NCBI GenBank assembly: GCA_009377695.1
Contig: WHTP01000055.1
Span: 1-37,163, forward strand
Direction of reading: 5' to 3'
Source: Hyphomicrobiales bacterium
GTDB taxonomy: Bacteria > Pseudomonadota > Alphaproteobacteria > Rhizobiales > Xanthobacteraceae
Length of the DNA: 37,163 nucleotides
The notes below the pieces were generated by a model. The model was not told the DNA's origin. It was given only the letters and a program-made list of their open reading frames with translations, and made no database searches. Shown here in pieces: positions 5,394 through 32,929 of the stretch (position 1 is the stretch's first letter; each line of letters starts with the position of its first letter). A program made the translations under genes and the position numbers.

Positions 5394-5944
5394 GGTGACG
5401 TCCTCGTCACGGACCAACACCAGAGCATCGGATTTGCACCGATCTCGGGCGAACCGAATAACGGAAGCTGTTGGTCAACTACCGAATCCTCCAGAGAATG
5501 ATACGAGCGAATGCCGGTAGGCCGACGGGCGCTTGCATCAGCCGATTGTCGAGCGCGGGAATACCGGAGGTGATGCCGCAAAACTTAGGAATTTTGCAGC
5601 TTTGCGCGTGCTTCAGAGCTACAACTTCATTGACCTCACTATCGGAAGAGAGCTGTTACTGGCAAATCCGCTTTCTAGACTAGCGATTCAGGTCCAAGCT
5701 CCAGGGTATCGGCGCTTCAAGCAGCGGCGGCCAAGGTTCGGTCTCTCGTTTCTTTCGCATCGAAGTTCGTATAGGAGGCCGCCGCAAAATGGTACGAACT
5801 TCGAAATCGGGACACTAGCTTCAGGTCCGTTTGGAGAGCGTCTGCTCCTAGAGCGAACCTGCTGTCTCGCTCAGAGTCGGACGCTGGCCTGCCGCGCGCT
5901 AGTGCCGCATTCATGCTAACATCTCCTTATGCGAAGGCTGTATT
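5394..5944. other. Divergent intergenic region with one palindromic element
   Basis: This 551-bp gap lies between the divergent dioxygenase gene and the small secreted-protein gene, so it should hold both promoters. Apart from the palindrome at 5761-5818 I find nothing nameable. Open frames of 60-130 codons occur here, but none resembles a known family. Confidence 0.45.
5761..5818 (-). repeat. Palindromic element, module A (locus 1)
   Basis: A perfect 11-bp inverted repeat (CGAAGTTCGTA at 5761-5771 and TACGAACTTCG at 5793-5803) encloses a GGAGGCCGCCGC loop. The 3' flank runs on to CGGGACACTAG, ending at 5818. Read on the minus strand, it closely matches the module A copies that start at 8370 and 32764, from CTAGTGTCC through the GGCGGCCTC loop. 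The outer part of the second arm (left side here) has diverged, so only one CTAG end is intact. Confidence 0.75.
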
Positions 5945-8369: not shown

Positions 8370-8449
8370 CTAGTGTCCCGATTCCGAAGTTCGTACCATT
8401 TCTCGGCGGCCTCTTTGATTCCAGTGTGGCTTCTGAACCACCACACTGG
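8370..8449 (+). repeat. Hybrid palindromic element, half module A plus short module B (locus 2)
   Basis: 8370-8413 repeats the left half and loop of module A (CTAGTGTCC through GGCGGCCTC). The expected right arm is missing. The sequence passes straight into CTTTGATTC, the linker that follows intact A modules at 23694 and 32764, and then into a short hairpin, CCAGTGTGG (8421-8429) and CCACACTGG (8441-8449), a collapsed module B. The layout suggests a deletion that removed the right arm of A and the inside of B. It may act as a transcript-end hairpin for ugd, which stops 11 nt upstream. Confidence 0.8.
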
Positions 8450-8821: not shown

Positions 8822-8848
8822 TGCGAACGTTGGATTCGGGAACACTAG
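8822..8848 (-). repeat. Degenerate half of a palindromic element
   Basis: The plus strand reads TGCGAACGTTGGATTCGGGA followed by ACACTAG, which resembles the right arm of modules A and D (TGCGAACTTCGGAATCG...GGACACTAG at 23738-23765). No matching left arm is visible within 100 bp. Its terminal CTAG supplies the TAG stop codon of the minus-strand membrane protein that ends at 8845. Confidence 0.5.
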
Positions 8849-20854: not shown

Positions 20855-22039
20855 CTACTCGGCGGGCCGTGGTGCGGGAGCAGCAACGCCATCTTCGGCG
20901 GCAGCGCTTTCTGCGGCGGCGCTTGCTTGTGCGCGGTGGTTCTCGCGCCGCCGTTCCATGAAATAGTTGGCCGTGCCGACGATCCCGCGCGGCAGGAACA
21001 GCGTCACCGCAACGAACATGCCGCCGAGGAGGAACAGCCAATAAGGTGCCAGCATGCCTGACGTGAAAACGGTCTTGGCGTAGTTGACGACGAAGGCGCC
21101 GAGGGCTGCGCCGACCAGCGTTCCGCGGCCACCCACGGCAACCCAGATCACCGCCTCGATGGAGTTCGCCGGCGAGAATTCACTCGGATTGATGATACCG
21201 ACCTGCGGCACATAGAGTGCCCCGGCGACCCCCGCCATGCAGGCCGACAGCGTAAAGACGAAAAGCTTGTAGGACTCGACGCGATAACCGAGGAACCGGG
21301 TGCGGGTCTCGGCGTCGCGGATCGCGATCAGGACCTTTCCAAGCTTCGACGTCACGATAACTCGGCAGATGACGAATCCGAGGATCAGCGCGAGTGCCGA
21401 GGTCGCGAACAGCGCCGCCCGTGTCCCCTGCGCCTGTACGTTGAAGCCGAGGATGTCCTTGAAATCGGTGAGCCCGTTGTTGCCGCCGAAACCGAAATTG
21501 TTGCGGAAGAATGCCAACATCAGCGCAAATGTGAGCGCTTGCGTGATGATCGAGAGATAGACACCGGTGACGCGGCTGCGGAAGGCAAACCAGCCGAATA
21601 CGAAGGCGAGCGCTCCGGGAACGAGAAGCACCATCAGCATGGCATAGGGAAACGACTGGAATCCGTACCAGTAGAGCGGCAGCTCCGACCAATTCAGGAA
21701 CACCATGAAGTCGGGAAGGATCGGATTCGCGTAGACGCCGCGGCCGCCGATCTGGCGCATCAGGTACATGCCCATGGCGTAGCCGCCGAGCGCGAAGAAC
21801 GCGCCGTGGCCAAGCGAAAGAATGCCGCAGTAACCCCAGATCAGGTCGATCGAGAGGGCAAGCAGAGCGTAGCAGATGTATTTGCCGAACAGCGCGACGT
21901 AGTAGGTCGAGACGTGAAACGGTGACGACGGCGGTGTCAGCAGGTTCAATGCTGGCACAATGATCGCGATCGCGGCGAGCAGCGCAATGAAGACGACGGC
22001 GCCGCGGTCGAGTGCGCGAGTCAGTGGAAACGGCGTCAT
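20855..22039 (-). CDS. urtC: Urea ABC transporter permease UrtC
   Basis: 394 residues, LivM-like inner-membrane permease with about ten hydrophobic segments. The landmark IWGYCGILSLGHGAFFALGGY lies in the N-terminal third and the coupling-helix region RFLGYRVESYKL in the middle. The C-terminus is a hydrophilic, Ala/Glu-rich cytoplasmic tail. Its ATG overlaps the urtB stop (ATGA), implying translational coupling. Confidence 0.95.
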   Translation of the reverse strand: MTPFPLTRALDRGAVVFIALLAAIAIIVPALNLLTPPSSPFHVSTYYVALFGKYICYALLALSIDLIWGYCGILSLGHGAFFALGGYAMGMYLMRQIGGRGVYANPILPDFMVFLNWSELPLYWYGFQSFPYAMLMVLLVPGALAFVFGWFAFRSRVTGVYLSIITQALTFALMLAFFRNNFGFGGNNGLTDFKDILGFNVQAQGTRAALFATSALALILGFVICRVIVTSKLGKVLIAIRDAETRTRFLGYRVESYKLFVFTLSACMAGVAGALYVPQVGIINPSEFSPANSIEAVIWVAVGGRGTLVGAALGAFVVNYAKTVFTSGMLAPYWLFLLGGMFVAVTLFLPRGIVGTANYFMERRRENHRAQASAAAESAAAEDGVAAPAPRPAE

Positions 22040-23646
22040 GCTTCGATCGCCCGGCCTTTGAGCGCGAACAGGCCGCGCGGGCGCTTCTGGATGAACAGGA
22101 TGATCAGGACCAGGATTGCGATCTTGGCCAGCACCGCGCCCGCATAGGGCTCGAGGAACTTGTTCGCAATGCCGAGCGTGAACGCGCCGACCAGCGTGCC
22201 CCAGAGATTGCCGACACCGCCGAACACCACGACCATGAACGAATCGATGATGTAGCCCTGCCCGAGATTGGGGCTGACATTGTCGATCTGCGACAGCGCG
22301 ACGCCGGCAAGGCCGGCGATGCCGGAGCCGAGCCCGAAGGTGAGGGCGTCGACGCGGCTGGTGCGGATGCCCATCGACGCGGCCATGGCGCGATTCTGCG
22401 TCACCGCCCGCATCTCAAGACCGAGATGCGTGAAGCGCAACATTGCGAGCAGCAGCAAAAAGATCGTCATCGTGAAGACGATGATCCACAACCGGTTGTA
22501 GGTGATCGTGATGTAGCCGACTTCGAAGGCGCCGCTCATCCAGGACGGATTGCCGACGTCCTTGTTGGTTGGGCCGAAGACGGTGCGCACCGTCTGCTGC
22601 AGGATCAGCGAGATGCCCCAGGTCGCGAGCAGCGTTTCGAGCGGCCGGCCATAGAGGAAGCGGATCACGCCGCGTTCGATCAGGATGCCGACGGCGCCGG
22701 CCACGATGAAAGCGAGGGGGATTGCGATCGGAAGGGAGTAGTCGAACAGCGCGGGATTGTGGGCGCGGATCAACTCCTGGACGACGAACGTGGTATAGGC
22801 GCCAAGCATCACCATCTCGCCATGGGCCATGTTGATGACGCCCATCACGCCGAAGGTGATGGCAAGGCCGATGGCCGCGAGCAGCAGGACCGAGCCGAGC
22901 GACAGGCCGTACCAGACATTCTGAACGCCGGACCACATGGCGAGGTTGGTCTGGATCGCAGCGATAGCGTCTTGGGCCGTCCGTTTGACGCCGTCGGGCG
23001 TGCCCTCCGGCAGGCTCGACAGCAGCCCTAGCGCGTCCTGATCGCCGCGCTGGCGCATGACAGCGACAGCTTCGATCTTCTCAGCCTCGCTGGCGTCCGG
23101 TTTGAACAGCACCACGGCGGCATGCGCTTCAATCAGCGCTTGCCGGATGTTGGGGTTGGTCTCCTTCTTGATCGCGGCAACAAGGGCTTCGATCGCGTTC
23201 GGATCCTTGGACTTGAAGACCGCCCGCGCCGCGTCGAGACGCCGCCCAGGGTCGGGCGAGAGCAGAGTGAGGCCGCCGAGCGCGGCGTCGATCGCTCGGC
23301 GCACGCGATTGTTGAGCCGCACCGGACTGAGGTCGGTGGGAACCGCGGCCGCCGGCTTTCCCGTTGCGGCGTCGAGGACGGCACCGGTGCGGTCTCGAAC
23401 ATAGACGCGCTTTTGCTGTGTGCTGAAAAGGAGCCGGCCTTCCTGCAAGGCTTCGATCACCGGGATCGCAAGCGGGCTACCGCTTCGGGCGACGGCTCCG
23501 ACGGCTGAATCAGTATCGGCAAAACTGTCCGCAGTGAAACCCGAGAGTGCGCTCTCGATATCCTGCGCCTGTGCGGCGGACGTGCCAATCAGCACGAGCC
23601 ACAGCATCACAATGAGCGATGAAACCCCATGGCGCACAACGCGCAT
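22036..23646 (-). CDS. urtB: Urea ABC transporter permease UrtB with N-terminal extension
   Basis: 536 residues. A signal peptide (VMLWLVLIGTSAAQAQ) precedes a roughly 200-residue helical, HEAT-like periplasmic region (such as RRLDAARAVFKSKDPNAIEA and NPNIRQALIEAHAAVVLF). The LivH-like permease follows, with INMAHGEMVMLGAYTTFV and the C-terminal GSGIAGLAGVALSQIDNVSP. The N-terminal extension is a hallmark that separates UrtB from amino-acid LivH permeases and supports urea as substrate. The gene is separated from urtA by 393 bp filled largely with palindromes. Confidence 0.95.
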   Translation of the reverse strand: MRVVRHGVSSLIVMLWLVLIGTSAAQAQDIESALSGFTADSFADTDSAVGAVARSGSPLAIPVIEALQEGRLLFSTQQKRVYVRDRTGAVLDAATGKPAAAVPTDLSPVRLNNRVRRAIDAALGGLTLLSPDPGRRLDAARAVFKSKDPNAIEALVAAIKKETNPNIRQALIEAHAAVVLFKPDASEAEKIEAVAVMRQRGDQDALGLLSSLPEGTPDGVKRTAQDAIAAIQTNLAMWSGVQNVWYGLSLGSVLLLAAIGLAITFGVMGVINMAHGEMVMLGAYTTFVVQELIRAHNPALFDYSLPIAIPLAFIVAGAVGILIERGVIRFLYGRPLETLLATWGISLILQQTVRTVFGPTNKDVGNPSWMSGAFEVGYITITYNRLWIIVFTMTIFLLLLAMLRFTHLGLEMRAVTQNRAMAASMGIRTSRVDALTFGLGSGIAGLAGVALSQIDNVSPNLGQGYIIDSFMVVVFGGVGNLWGTLVGAFTLGIANKFLEPYAGAVLAKIAILVLIILFIQKRPRGLFALKGRAIEA

Positions 23647-23693
23647 CGTTAGACCCCGGCAAATGCATGGGAGGCATTCAGCCTCCCGCTATT

Positions 23694-23765
23694 GTCCTTC
23701 GATTCCGAAGTTCGCATGATTTTGCGGCCCGTTCGTTTGCGAACTTCGGAATCGAAGGACACTAG
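23694..23765. repeat. Palindromic element, module A (locus 3)
   Basis: A perfect 23-bp inverted repeat: 23694-23716 (GTCCTTCGATTCC...) and 23738-23760, with a 21-nt loop containing TTGCGGCC. The right end runs into ACTAG; the left flank reads CTATTGTCC, one base from CTAGTGTCC. It is the most perfect copy in the window, and the first of four adjacent palindromes between urtB and urtA. Confidence 0.92.
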
Positions 23766-23778
23766 CAACTCTTTGATT

Positions 23779-23857
23779 CCAGTGGAGTGGATTTGACATT
23801 CGCTACCCTGTTGAGCGCACGCTCGCAAAGCGAATGTCAAATCCAAAACTCCACTGG
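23779..23857. repeat. Palindromic element, module C
   Basis: Left arm 23779-23804 (CCAGTGGAGT then GGATTTGACATTCGCT) and right arm 23829-23857 pair over 10 + 16 bp with a 3-nt bulge on the right arm. The ends are CCAGTGG/CCACTGG, a variant of the CTAGTG ends of the other modules. This is the only copy in the window. It is joined to module A by the linker CAACTCTTTGATT. Confidence 0.85.
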
Positions 23858-23871
23858 CAACTTATTACTTG

Positions 23872-23948
23872 CTAGTGGTCCTTTGATTCTAACGTTCGCA
23901 AAGGTGCCTGCCGCAACGGGATGCGAACGTTTAGAATCGGACCACTAG
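23872..23948. repeat. Palindromic element, module D
   Basis: Left arm 23872-23900 starts CTAGTGGTCC and ends ACGTTCGCA; right arm 23922-23948 starts TGCGAACGT and ends GGACCACTAG. They pair along nearly the full length with two small bulges. The terminal CTAG at 23945-23948 is shared with module B, so D and B are fused end to end. Confidence 0.85.
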
Positions 23949-24021
23949 TGTGGCTTTGGTTCAGAAGTCCGCATGTCGAACTCGCCGCGAGAATGATGCG
24001 GACTGCTGAACCGCCACACTG
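23944..24021. repeat. Palindromic element, module B (locus 3)
   Basis: Left arm 23944-23973 (CTAGTGTGG...GTTCAGAAGTCCGCAT) and right arm 23995-24021 (ATGCGGACT...CCACACTGG) with a loop TGTCGAACTCGCCGCGAGA. Nearly identical to the module B copy at 32852-32929. Its right end lies 18 nt beyond the urtA stop codon, so in urtA mRNA it is the first structure met after translation ends. Confidence 0.9.
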
Positions 24022-24039
24022 GTGGTACGGTCAGGACGT

Positions 24040-25347
24040 TCAGCCGCCGCACTTCTTGGTGACAGTGTTGTAGTTGCCGCATTTGAGCTTGACCCAATCG
24101 GCCTTCAGGTCGCGCGATCCTTCAAGGTGAGGCGACCAGGCTGCGCCGGGAACGAGGTCGGGCGTCTTCCACACCACGTCGAATTGGCCGTCGCCGCGCA
24201 CCTCGCCGATAAACACCGGCTTGGTGATGTGATGGTTCGCCAGCATGGTGGAGGTGCCGCCCGACAGGTTGGGCGCGGTGATGCCGGGCAGCGCGTCGAT
24301 GACAGCGTCGGGATCGACCGATTTCACCTTCTCGACGGCGTTGACCCACATCCGGAAGCCGATGACGTGCGCTTCCATCGGATCGTTGGTCACGCGCTTG
24401 GGATTTTTCGTGAAGGCCTTCCACCGCTTGATGAACTCGGCGTTGATCGGCGCCTTGAGCGATTCGAAGTAGTTCCAGGCCGCCAGGTGTCCAATGAGGG
24501 GCTTCGTATCGATGCCAGCGAGCTCTTCCTCGCCGACCGAGAACGCCACCACGGGAATGTCCTTCGCGCTGACGCCTTGGTTGCCCAGTTCCTTATAGAA
24601 GGGAACGTTGGCATCGCCGTTAATGGTCGAGACCACCGCCGTCTTGCGGCCCTGTGAGCCGAACGTCTTGATGGCGGCGACCCGCGTCTGCCAGTCCGCA
24701 TGGCCGAACGGGGTGTAGTTGATCGAGATGTCGCCGGGAGCGACCCCCTTCGACTTCAAATAGGCTTCGAGAATACGGTTGGTGGTGCGCGGGTAGACGT
24801 AGTCGGTGCCTTCGAGCACCCAGCGGACGACTTTTTCCTCCTTCATGAGGTAGTCGACGGCGGGGATCGCCTGCTGGTTCGGCGCTGCGCCGGTGTAGAA
24901 CACGTTGCGCTCGCTCTCCTCGCCCTCGTACTGGACGGGGTAGAACAGGATGTTGTTGAGCTCCTTGAAGACCGGCAGCACGGATTTGCGCGACACCGAG
25001 GTCCAGCATCCGAACACCGCGGAAACCTTGTCGTTAGAAATCAGCTCACGCGCTTTTTCGGCGAACAGCGGCCAGTTCGACGCCGGATCGGTGACGACCG
25101 CTTCGAGTTTGCGCCCCAGCACGCCGCCCTTCGCGTTCTGGTCTTCGATCAACATCAGCATCACGTCTTTCAACGTGGTCTCGCTGATAGCCATCGTTCC
25201 TGACAGGGAGTGGAGAATTCCGATCCGGATCGGGCCTTGCGCCCGCGCCGTTGAAATAAGTGCGGGGCTGCAGACGAGCCCGGCGGCAGCGGCCAACCCG
25301 CCCCGGAGCACCGTTCGCCTTGCAATAGATTTGACTGGAGTCCTCAT
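24040..25347 (-). CDS. urtA: Urea ABC transporter substrate-binding protein UrtA
   Basis: 435 residues, periplasmic type I binding protein of the urea/short-amide class. A twin-arginine signal (SIARRTVLRGG, Arg10-Arg11) is followed by a hydrophobic region and an AxA cleavage site (STARA, residue 36). Landmarks: IRIGILHSLSGTMAISE, VFGCWTSVSRKSVLPVFKE, LFYPVQYEGEE and NYFESL. The CWTS and PVQYEGEE motifs are typical of UrtA. The ATG at 25347 was chosen because GAGGG lies about 8 nt upstream and because the sigma-54 promoter sits inside the longer upstream frame. First gene of the 11-kb urea unit. Confidence 0.96.
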   Translation of the reverse strand: MRTPVKSIARRTVLRGGLAAAAGLVCSPALISTARAQGPIRIGILHSLSGTMAISETTLKDVMLMLIEDQNAKGGVLGRKLEAVVTDPASNWPLFAEKARELISNDKVSAVFGCWTSVSRKSVLPVFKELNNILFYPVQYEGEESERNVFYTGAAPNQQAIPAVDYLMKEEKVVRWVLEGTDYVYPRTTNRILEAYLKSKGVAPGDISINYTPFGHADWQTRVAAIKTFGSQGRKTAVVSTINGDANVPFYKELGNQGVSAKDIPVVAFSVGEEELAGIDTKPLIGHLAAWNYFESLKAPINAEFIKRWKAFTKNPKRVTNDPMEAHVIGFRMWVNAVEKVKSVDPDAVIDALPGITAPNLSGGTSTMLANHHITKPVFIGEVRGDGQFDVVWKTPDLVPGAAWSPHLEGSRDLKADWVKLKCGNYNTVTKKCGG

Positions 25348-25409
25348 CGCGATGTCCCTCTGTTTGACGCAGCGAGCCACCCGGCGCTGCGACCACCAGC
25401 GGACGTGAC

Positions 25410-25424
25410 GCAAGGACTGTGCCA
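25410..25424 (-). promoter_or_regulatory. Sigma-54 promoter of the urt-ure unit
   Basis: On the minus strand the sequence reads TGGCAC-AGTCC-TTGC, an exact match to the -24/-12 consensus TGGCAC-N5-TTGC. It predicts a start near 25398, leaving a leader of about 50 nt before the urtA ATG with its ribosome-binding site. Sigma-54 control implies an enhancer-binding activator, most plausibly NtrC under nitrogen limitation; the activator itself is not in the window. Confidence 0.8.
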
Positions 25425-25526
25425 TCGCATTAACCCCCGCCAAGCGATTGATCGACAAATCGTTTACCGTCGCGCTCGGGTGACCGGCGAAACGACGTGC
25501 CCGATTTAAGGTCGCCGTCCCGCTTG

Positions 25527-32763: not shown

Positions 32764-32838
32764 CTAGTGTCCCGATTCCGAAGTTCGTACCATTTCGCAG
32801 CGGCCTCCTCTACGAACTTTGGAATCGAAGGACACTAG
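32764..32838. repeat. Palindromic element, module A (locus 4)
   Basis: Left arm 32764-32789 (CTAGTGTCC...GAAGTTCGTA) and right arm 32811-32838 (TACGAACTTTGG...GGACACTAG) pair over their whole length apart from a 2-nt insertion and one mismatch. The loop holds GCAGCGGCCTC. Both ends are CTAG. The linker CAACTCTTTGAAT follows, then module B, the same A-linker order as at 23694. Confidence 0.92.
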
Positions 32839-32851
32839 CAACTCTTTGAAT

Positions 32852-32929
32852 CTAGTGTGGCTTTGGTTCAGAAGTCCGCATGTCGGGCTCGCCGCGAGAA
32901 TGATGCGGACTTCTGAACTGCCACACTAG
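32852..32929. repeat. Palindromic element, module B (locus 4)
   Basis: Left arm 32852-32881 (CTAGTGTGG...GTTCAGAAGTCCGCAT) and right arm 32903-32929 (ATGCGGACTTCTGAAC...CCACACTAG), loop TGTCGGGCTCGCCGCGAGA; nearly identical to 23944-24021. The right-hand CTAG supplies the TAG stop codon of the glgA remnant on the minus strand (32926-32928). Confidence 0.92.

Follow-up and report, generated by a model that had tools for sequence, protein, structure and literature searches.

Nested two-hairpin elements between urtA and urtB: probable IS630-mobilized MITEs of alphaproteobacteria

The palindrome cluster between urtA and urtB in the window (the whole 37,163-nucleotide stretch analysed, from contig WHTP01000055.1 of a Hyphomicrobiales bacterium) consists of two elements, not of four modules: a C-D element lies inside an A-B element of ~166 bp that has two hairpins. 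Each such hairpin pair is very probably one non-autonomous MITE (miniature inverted-repeat transposable element) of ~165 bp, moved in trans, most likely by a transposase of the IS630 (Tc1/mariner) family, and inserting at the TA in CTAG. A preliminary description of this DNA, partly supported by our results, had left REP/BIME-type and MITE-type readings side by side; the MITE-type reading is borne out by hundreds of dispersed intergenic copies, nesting at CTAG, a relative without the cluster and IS630-like outer arms.

Architecture of the cluster and nesting of its units

Structurally, all four palindromes are present in the gap between urtB and urtA (both genes named via NCBIfam models), in the order A, C, D, B (Table 1). 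They had been described as four modules lying almost end to end; the palindromes themselves are real, whereas their independence is not, since they form two nested two-hairpin elements and D and B have one CTAG in common. The uninterrupted A-B element further along the window corresponds to the state before the C-D insertion, and its hairpin B, reported earlier as a near-identical copy, matches that of the cluster at 94.7% over 76 nt; the recurrences claimed for A were also found. A short linker common to the modules had been proposed as well, which holds for A-B units, to which linker CAACTCTTTGAWT is confined, and not for C-D units or for E-F units (a third pair, found elsewhere in the genome), each with a linker of its own. 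A de-novo finder, for which an exact CTAG is needed at one foot of each hairpin, called five hairpins in the window, namely A, D, B and both members of the 32764-32929 pair, and 1, 1, 0, 1 and 0 in five block-shuffled controls; it missed hairpin C because the feet of C are CCAG and CTGG. The window's A owes its perfect arms to a three-nucleotide insertion, usual on the inner arm, that is present on the outer arm too; template switching, with one arm copied onto the other, would be a possible cause.

Table 1 Features of the window (positions count from its first letter)
Feature	Position	Strand	Remark
urtB	22036-23646	-	
Hairpin A (class I)	23689-23765	+	Left half of interrupted A-B element; left foot CTAT, right foot CTAG
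A-B linker CAACTCTTTGATT	23766-23778	+	Matches CAACTCTTTGAAT of the uninterrupted copy at 32839-32851
C-D element	23779-23948	+	Inserted at the CTAG beginning B; 168-bp unit, recurs in own genome
Hairpin C (class II)	23779-23857	+	Part of C-D element
C-D linker	23858-23871	+	Between hairpins C and D
Hairpin D (class I)	23872-23948	+	Part of C-D element
Hairpin B (class II)	23945-24022	+	Right half of interrupted A-B element; CTAG 23945-23948 common to D and B
urtA	24040-25458	-	
Uninterrupted A-B element	32764-32929	+	A 32764-32838, linker 32839-32851, B 32852-32929; CTAG at both outer feet
Lone, partly decayed hairpin A	5745-5818	-	86.7% over 75 columns
Left half of hairpin A in decayed A-B copy	8370-8415	+	B-like piece at most 20 nt further on

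Two smaller features of the window stand apart from these. Just upstream of urtB, at 23669-23688, is a small hairpin, GGGAGGC-ATTCA-GCCTCCC, that is kept in G401, a genome of the same genus without the four palindromes; conceivably this is an older stem-loop between the two genes, next to which the elements inserted. An extra arm, CTAGTGTTCCCGAATCCAACGTTCGCA, at 8848 on the minus strand, has an imperfect partner ~90 nt off and is left unassigned among types A-F.

Pairing is fixed, A with B, C with D and E with F, and 117 of the 125 units analysed combine a class I with a class II hairpin under a refined class rule (a cruder rule gave 60 mixed pairs of 72), so that the earlier notion of different hairpins assembled in different combinations falls away. 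Units are 163-170 bp long, typically ~165 bp, and single hairpins are 74-80 nt with CTAG at their feet. Extra nucleotides, mostly 2-4 and a few bases inside the CTAG, are found on the inner arm of both hairpins in 125 of 137 adjacent pairs (hairpins 6-22 nt apart, the commonest linker length being 13 nt), namely 35/40 in the own genome (G000), 19/19 in G402, 23/26 in G441, from another genus of the family, and 48/52 at named loci, a set of 80 loci of which 49 contained a pair. Three G441 hairpins have no inner insertion at all (L243:9139-9213, L245:11462-11534 and L245:13896-13967); two of them lie outside called pairs, and they would be exceptions to pairwise movement if they had been inserted singly. 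CTAG is present at both outer ends of 50 of the 71 full units in a similarity-based set (foot counts from the de-novo finder are biased by its need for an exact CTAG), while its frequency outside hairpins in the G441 sample is one in 4,646 bases. One CTAG is common to neighbouring hairpins in 11, 3 and 9 cases in the samples from G000, G402 and G441, respectively.

Mixed rows of hairpins arise by nesting of whole units. Two before/after pairs were found in which a whole unit sits at a CTAG within another, C-D in A-B as in the window, and E-F in C-D, where E-F is inserted at the CTAG beginning D at other places of the own genome. Each of the two nested insertions brought a net gain of one CTAG, which is compatible with duplication of TA or of CTAG. 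Among relatives, G401 is collinear across urtB-urtA and lacks the cluster, with 19 nt between alignable blocks, and a second A-B element (L103:3239-3404) has no counterpart in the corresponding intergenic stretch of G402; because both relatives are too diverged, neither empty site displays the exact target and its duplication. The flanks of 85 clusters were compared with relatives' stretches, most of which were too diverged, and two spanning matches were obtained. One of these is the L103:3239-3404 case in G402; the other looks like an unrelated repeat and was discounted.

Copy number, genomic location and spread

Numerically, the own genome (5.85 Mb in 235 contigs) contains 87+75 exact matches to the D arm alone and 271+262 = 533 matches to a strict arm pattern, CTAGTGN{2,7}GRWTYNRAMRTYCGCW, the reversed pattern giving 0+0. 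Copies of the whole C-D block occupy at least 40 distinct places of this genome, the window's own included (40 of 469 candidates were scored). Across the window and 20 own-genome stretches that were picked for containing matches (396,502 bases together), 130 hairpins were found by similarity and 101 by the de-novo finder; scaled via the strict arm matches, the genome would hold very roughly 480-610 hairpins. In the single 5.9 Mb contig of G441, 20 evenly spaced 20-kb stretches held 66 hairpins (0 in a shuffled control), which extrapolates to ~980. The preliminary description had proposed a count of copies and pairings as a check, with few copies or one known insertion sequence behind all arms as outcomes against it; copies proved numerous, pairings are fixed, and no single known insertion sequence accounts for all arms.

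With respect to location, few clusters lie inside ORFs of at least 200 aa, as called mechanically: 4/50 in G000, 1/26 in G402 and 1/31 in G441, where the corresponding fractions for random placements are 0.805, 0.785 and 0.838. Short, dispersed, mostly intergenic and present in many copies, the elements thus have the general features of MITEs. Several copies lie less than 100 bases from contig ends of the own genome (C15, C66, C133, C142 and C152), so the repeats probably break this draft assembly.

In the order, 12 of 397 genomes contain the strict arm pattern, and in the genus 5 of 8, the own genome included in both counts; elements whose arms differ, among them G441's type-i units, escape these counts. 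The two-hairpin architecture itself recurs in many alphaproteobacteria with differing arm sequences: a scan of named genomes, among the matches listed (at least 113 stretches; 80 listed loci), gave Bradyrhizobium, Afipia, Nitrobacter, Mesorhizobium, Phyllobacterium, Methylocystis, Hyphomicrobium, Caulobacter, Phenylobacterium, Asticcacaulis, Paramagnetospirillum and Terasakiella, with the full two-hairpin unit at some, not all, of the 80 loci. A comparison of the A-B element with a plasmid collection gave no match, and the literature searched, which left most subscription journals outside its coverage, yielded no description of this two-hairpin element. Arm sequence varies by genus while the arms of each hairpin remain complementary: in 22 chosen class II hairpins, 95.3% of the cells are paired and 104 cells show changes in both arms (30.9 in shuffles), none of 500 shuffles being as high. 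G-U pairs make up only 8 of ~566 paired cells in the class II alignment, a rarity that would suit ends held identical as DNA more than pairing as RNA.

IS630 ends and the proposed mechanism

IS630 matches occur in 105 of 198 genomes of the family (NF033545, E<=1e-10), and the copies examined are ~1.1-1.2 kb and carry a transposase gene. By scanning loci around transposases for arms like those of the hairpins, we found an intact IS630 element (L150) in G400, a genome of the same genus, that is 1,180 bp long, lies between CTA and TAG, and has the ends GTGTCCTGAGCCAGAAATTCGC and GTGTCCTGAATCAGAGATTCGT and a transposase of 379 aa assigned to the IS630 family (NF033545, 287 bits; Pfam DDE_3). Among 31 IS630 loci, 16 have ends matching at least 14/24, of which 13 are flanked on both sides by CTA/TAG, as counted with an end search that required only TA and left CTAG unrewarded; another end finder was unusable for this count because it rewarded CTAG in its scoring. 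IS630 of Shigella reportedly prefers the TA in CTAG.

The outer arms of the elements resemble such ends. Against 35 IS630 ends, chosen by hand with the GTACCC type and several others left out, as the 17 arms were also hand-chosen, the arms of A and B reached 18/22, one arm from Caulobacter 19/22, one from Bradyrhizobium 20/22 and that of L062 21/22, in each case with none of 2000 shuffles scoring so well; the likeness is weaker for E and F (16/22 each, with 4 and 2 of 2000 shuffles as high), D (16/22, 10/2000) and C (15/22, 27/2000). In G441, type-i arms are closest to that genome's own IS630 (17/22; 14 and 15 for the next genome), and type-ii arms match the IS630 ends of other genomes better than those of G441. 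The best match of B is the right end of an IS630 on a Bradyrhizobium barranii plasmid (L370), the left end of which is A-like; L370 is a single copy and may be a chimera. Its transposase has its stop codon supplied by the flanking TAG of the target (L370:1622-1640). Two IS630 copies start exactly at a CTAG foot of a hairpin of this kind: L183, and L158:178-1221 (146 bits), which begins at the right foot of a hairpin A standing alone in G402. The latter is of another type, with GAGCG/ATTTTCC-like ends and a CTAG target. A second IS630 type in G400 (L161:145-1265) has GTACCC ends in CTAG, with a left side unlike the element arms.

Searches of the own assembly with PF13358 (0 at E<=1e-3) and NF033545 (0 at E<=1e-10; 11 of 27 candidates scored) found no IS630; a query with the L172 protein also gave 0 at E<=1, which, run without a positive control, shows little. 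Nor was IS630 found in G398, which has 97 arms, so that no cognate transposase was found in either of these two carriers, while G441 has IS630. Within the genus, IS630 and strict arms do not co-occur, G397, G401 and G403 having IS630 and zero strict arms, and none of the IS630 copies found has its two ends identical to the two outer arms of a single unit. As to the suggested search for a transposase with matching terminal repeats, IS630 ends do resemble the outer arms, while none was found in the own assembly and none equals both arms. These three points (none found in G000 and G398, lack of tracking within the genus, and lack of equal ends) speak against IS630, which remains the likely mobilizer by inference. 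They would be expected if elements outlast the transposase source they depend on, or if draft assemblies have lost it.

Mechanistically, each element has four terminal-repeat-like arms, the two outer ones resembling IS630 ends and the two inner ones with mostly 2-4 extra nucleotides. We posit that an IS630-type transposase would bind the two outer ends, excise the unit and insert it at the TA in a CTAG, with TA as the probable duplicated target. With extra nucleotides separating CTAG from the remainder of the repeat, the inner arms would be poor substrates, and the pair would therefore move together. In the window, the C-D element jumped into the middle CTAG of the A-B element between urtA and urtB.

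Known systems, rival explanations and meaning

By mechanism, the closest known system is RUP of Streptococcus pneumoniae with IS630-Spn1: RUP is a short non-coding repeat with IS630-like ends that inserts at TA (PMC2229807), the first features being those of the elements here and the TA insertion being that of RUP. In that source, RUP measures 107 bp and its terminal repeat 9 bp, whereas our elements are ~165 bp, have two hairpins and four terminal-repeat-like arms, and come from a different phylum. Pneumococcal repeats also insert into each other (PMC10969869). ISY100, a member of IS630, cuts at its ends and duplicates TA (PMC2170065); insertion sequences of the IS630 family have ends like the outer arms, but the IS630 copies here have a transposase gene and the elements have none. 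By layout, the closest is CIR (CcrM-associated intergenic repeats) of Caulobacter and Brucella, ~110 bp with two inverted-repeat arms and a linker, TA termini, an intergenic location and a conserved GANTC at a terminal loop, for which PMC2229807 gives mobility as unknown. Our elements are likewise alphaproteobacterial and intergenic, with two arms, a linker and TA at the termini, and are set apart by their ~165 bp and by the distribution of GANTC. GANTC occurs in class II loops in 27/36 cases in G000, 4/18 in G402, 0/22 in G441 and 7/45 at named loci, and in class I arms in 31/34, 18/20 and 42/51, being absent from all 23 G441 units; because it is absent in G441 and common in class II loops only in G000, we did not file the elements as CIR. 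They may still belong to the CIR, RIME1 or Bru-RS family, the comparison with CIR being one of descriptions. The likeness to RUP and CIR falls short of demonstrating a common family with either, and the elements would be a variant with two hairpins and four end-like arms.

REP/BIME and REPIN sequences are, as here, high-copy inverted doublets of imperfect palindromes, and the doublets with short spacers resemble REP head-head dimers as described in PMC3733652. That the elements are large repetitive extragenic palindromes of this kind, moved by a RAYT of the Y1 family, is nevertheless very improbable, and the REP/BIME reading of the preliminary description is not upheld. None of the distinguishing features of REP/BIME (GTAG/CGTC tag, 20-40 bp units, tyrosine transposase) fits ~165-bp units with CTAG feet and 74-80 nt per hairpin. 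The own genome does have one Y1_Tnp match, but this sole locus has a single arm ~1.2 kb away and no flanking pair, and a RAYT flanked by the repeats was found in none of the carriers, some of whose genomes are incomplete. Nor do Y1 matches track the elements in the genus: with several genomes incomplete, PF01797 matches occur in G397 and G403, which lack strict arms, and not in G398, G399 and G400, which have them. In Bradyrhizobium, which belongs to the same bacterial family, the repeats Br-REP1 and Br-REP2 are also intergenic and palindromic, but their consensus (PMC5082802) has no CTAG feet and, by eye, no resemblance to the arms here.

Equally hard to credit is a structured RNA or regulatory element under selection at its sites, for instance one that stabilises the mRNA between the urtA and urtB cistrons. 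The position of the cluster, with a binding-protein gene of the urt set on one side and a permease gene on the other, would suit such a role, as would the strong arm covariation. Yet the scarcity of G-U pairs is that of identical DNA ends, hundreds of copies occupy varied intergenic sites and nest in one another, and G401 does without the cluster at urtA-urtB. Four Rfam matches in the region all scored far below their gathering thresholds and were dismissed as chance. A mobilizer from another DDE transposase family that duplicates the whole CTAG, such as one of the IS481 type, with the element read as TG...CA, is improbable too, if a little less so. IS481 targets CTAG, every arm has CTAG followed by TG, and the nested insertions alone cannot separate TA from CTAG duplication; against this, where loci recovered with the IS481 profile (NF033577) have matching arms beside the gene, as L150 does and L161 at one end, the gene is that of an IS630, and the own genome has zero IS481 matches above the cut-off of that profile.

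Thus, we favour non-autonomous MITEs moved by an IS630-family transposase. Much more tentatively, and with doubt outweighing confidence, they might represent a widespread alphaproteobacterial four-end element with working outer repeats and inner ones inactivated by a fixed insertion, movable only as a block, whose arms change with the resident IS630 repeats and which may be a larger relative of CIR that supplies the mobility mechanism of CIR. If true, a large class of unnamed alphaproteobacterial intergenic palindromes, with ~1,000 hairpins in one complete genome by extrapolation, one element pair of which sits among urea-transporter genes, would be explained as one transposable-element design, with IS630 named as the likely transposase family and a mobility mechanism suggested for CIR-type repeats.
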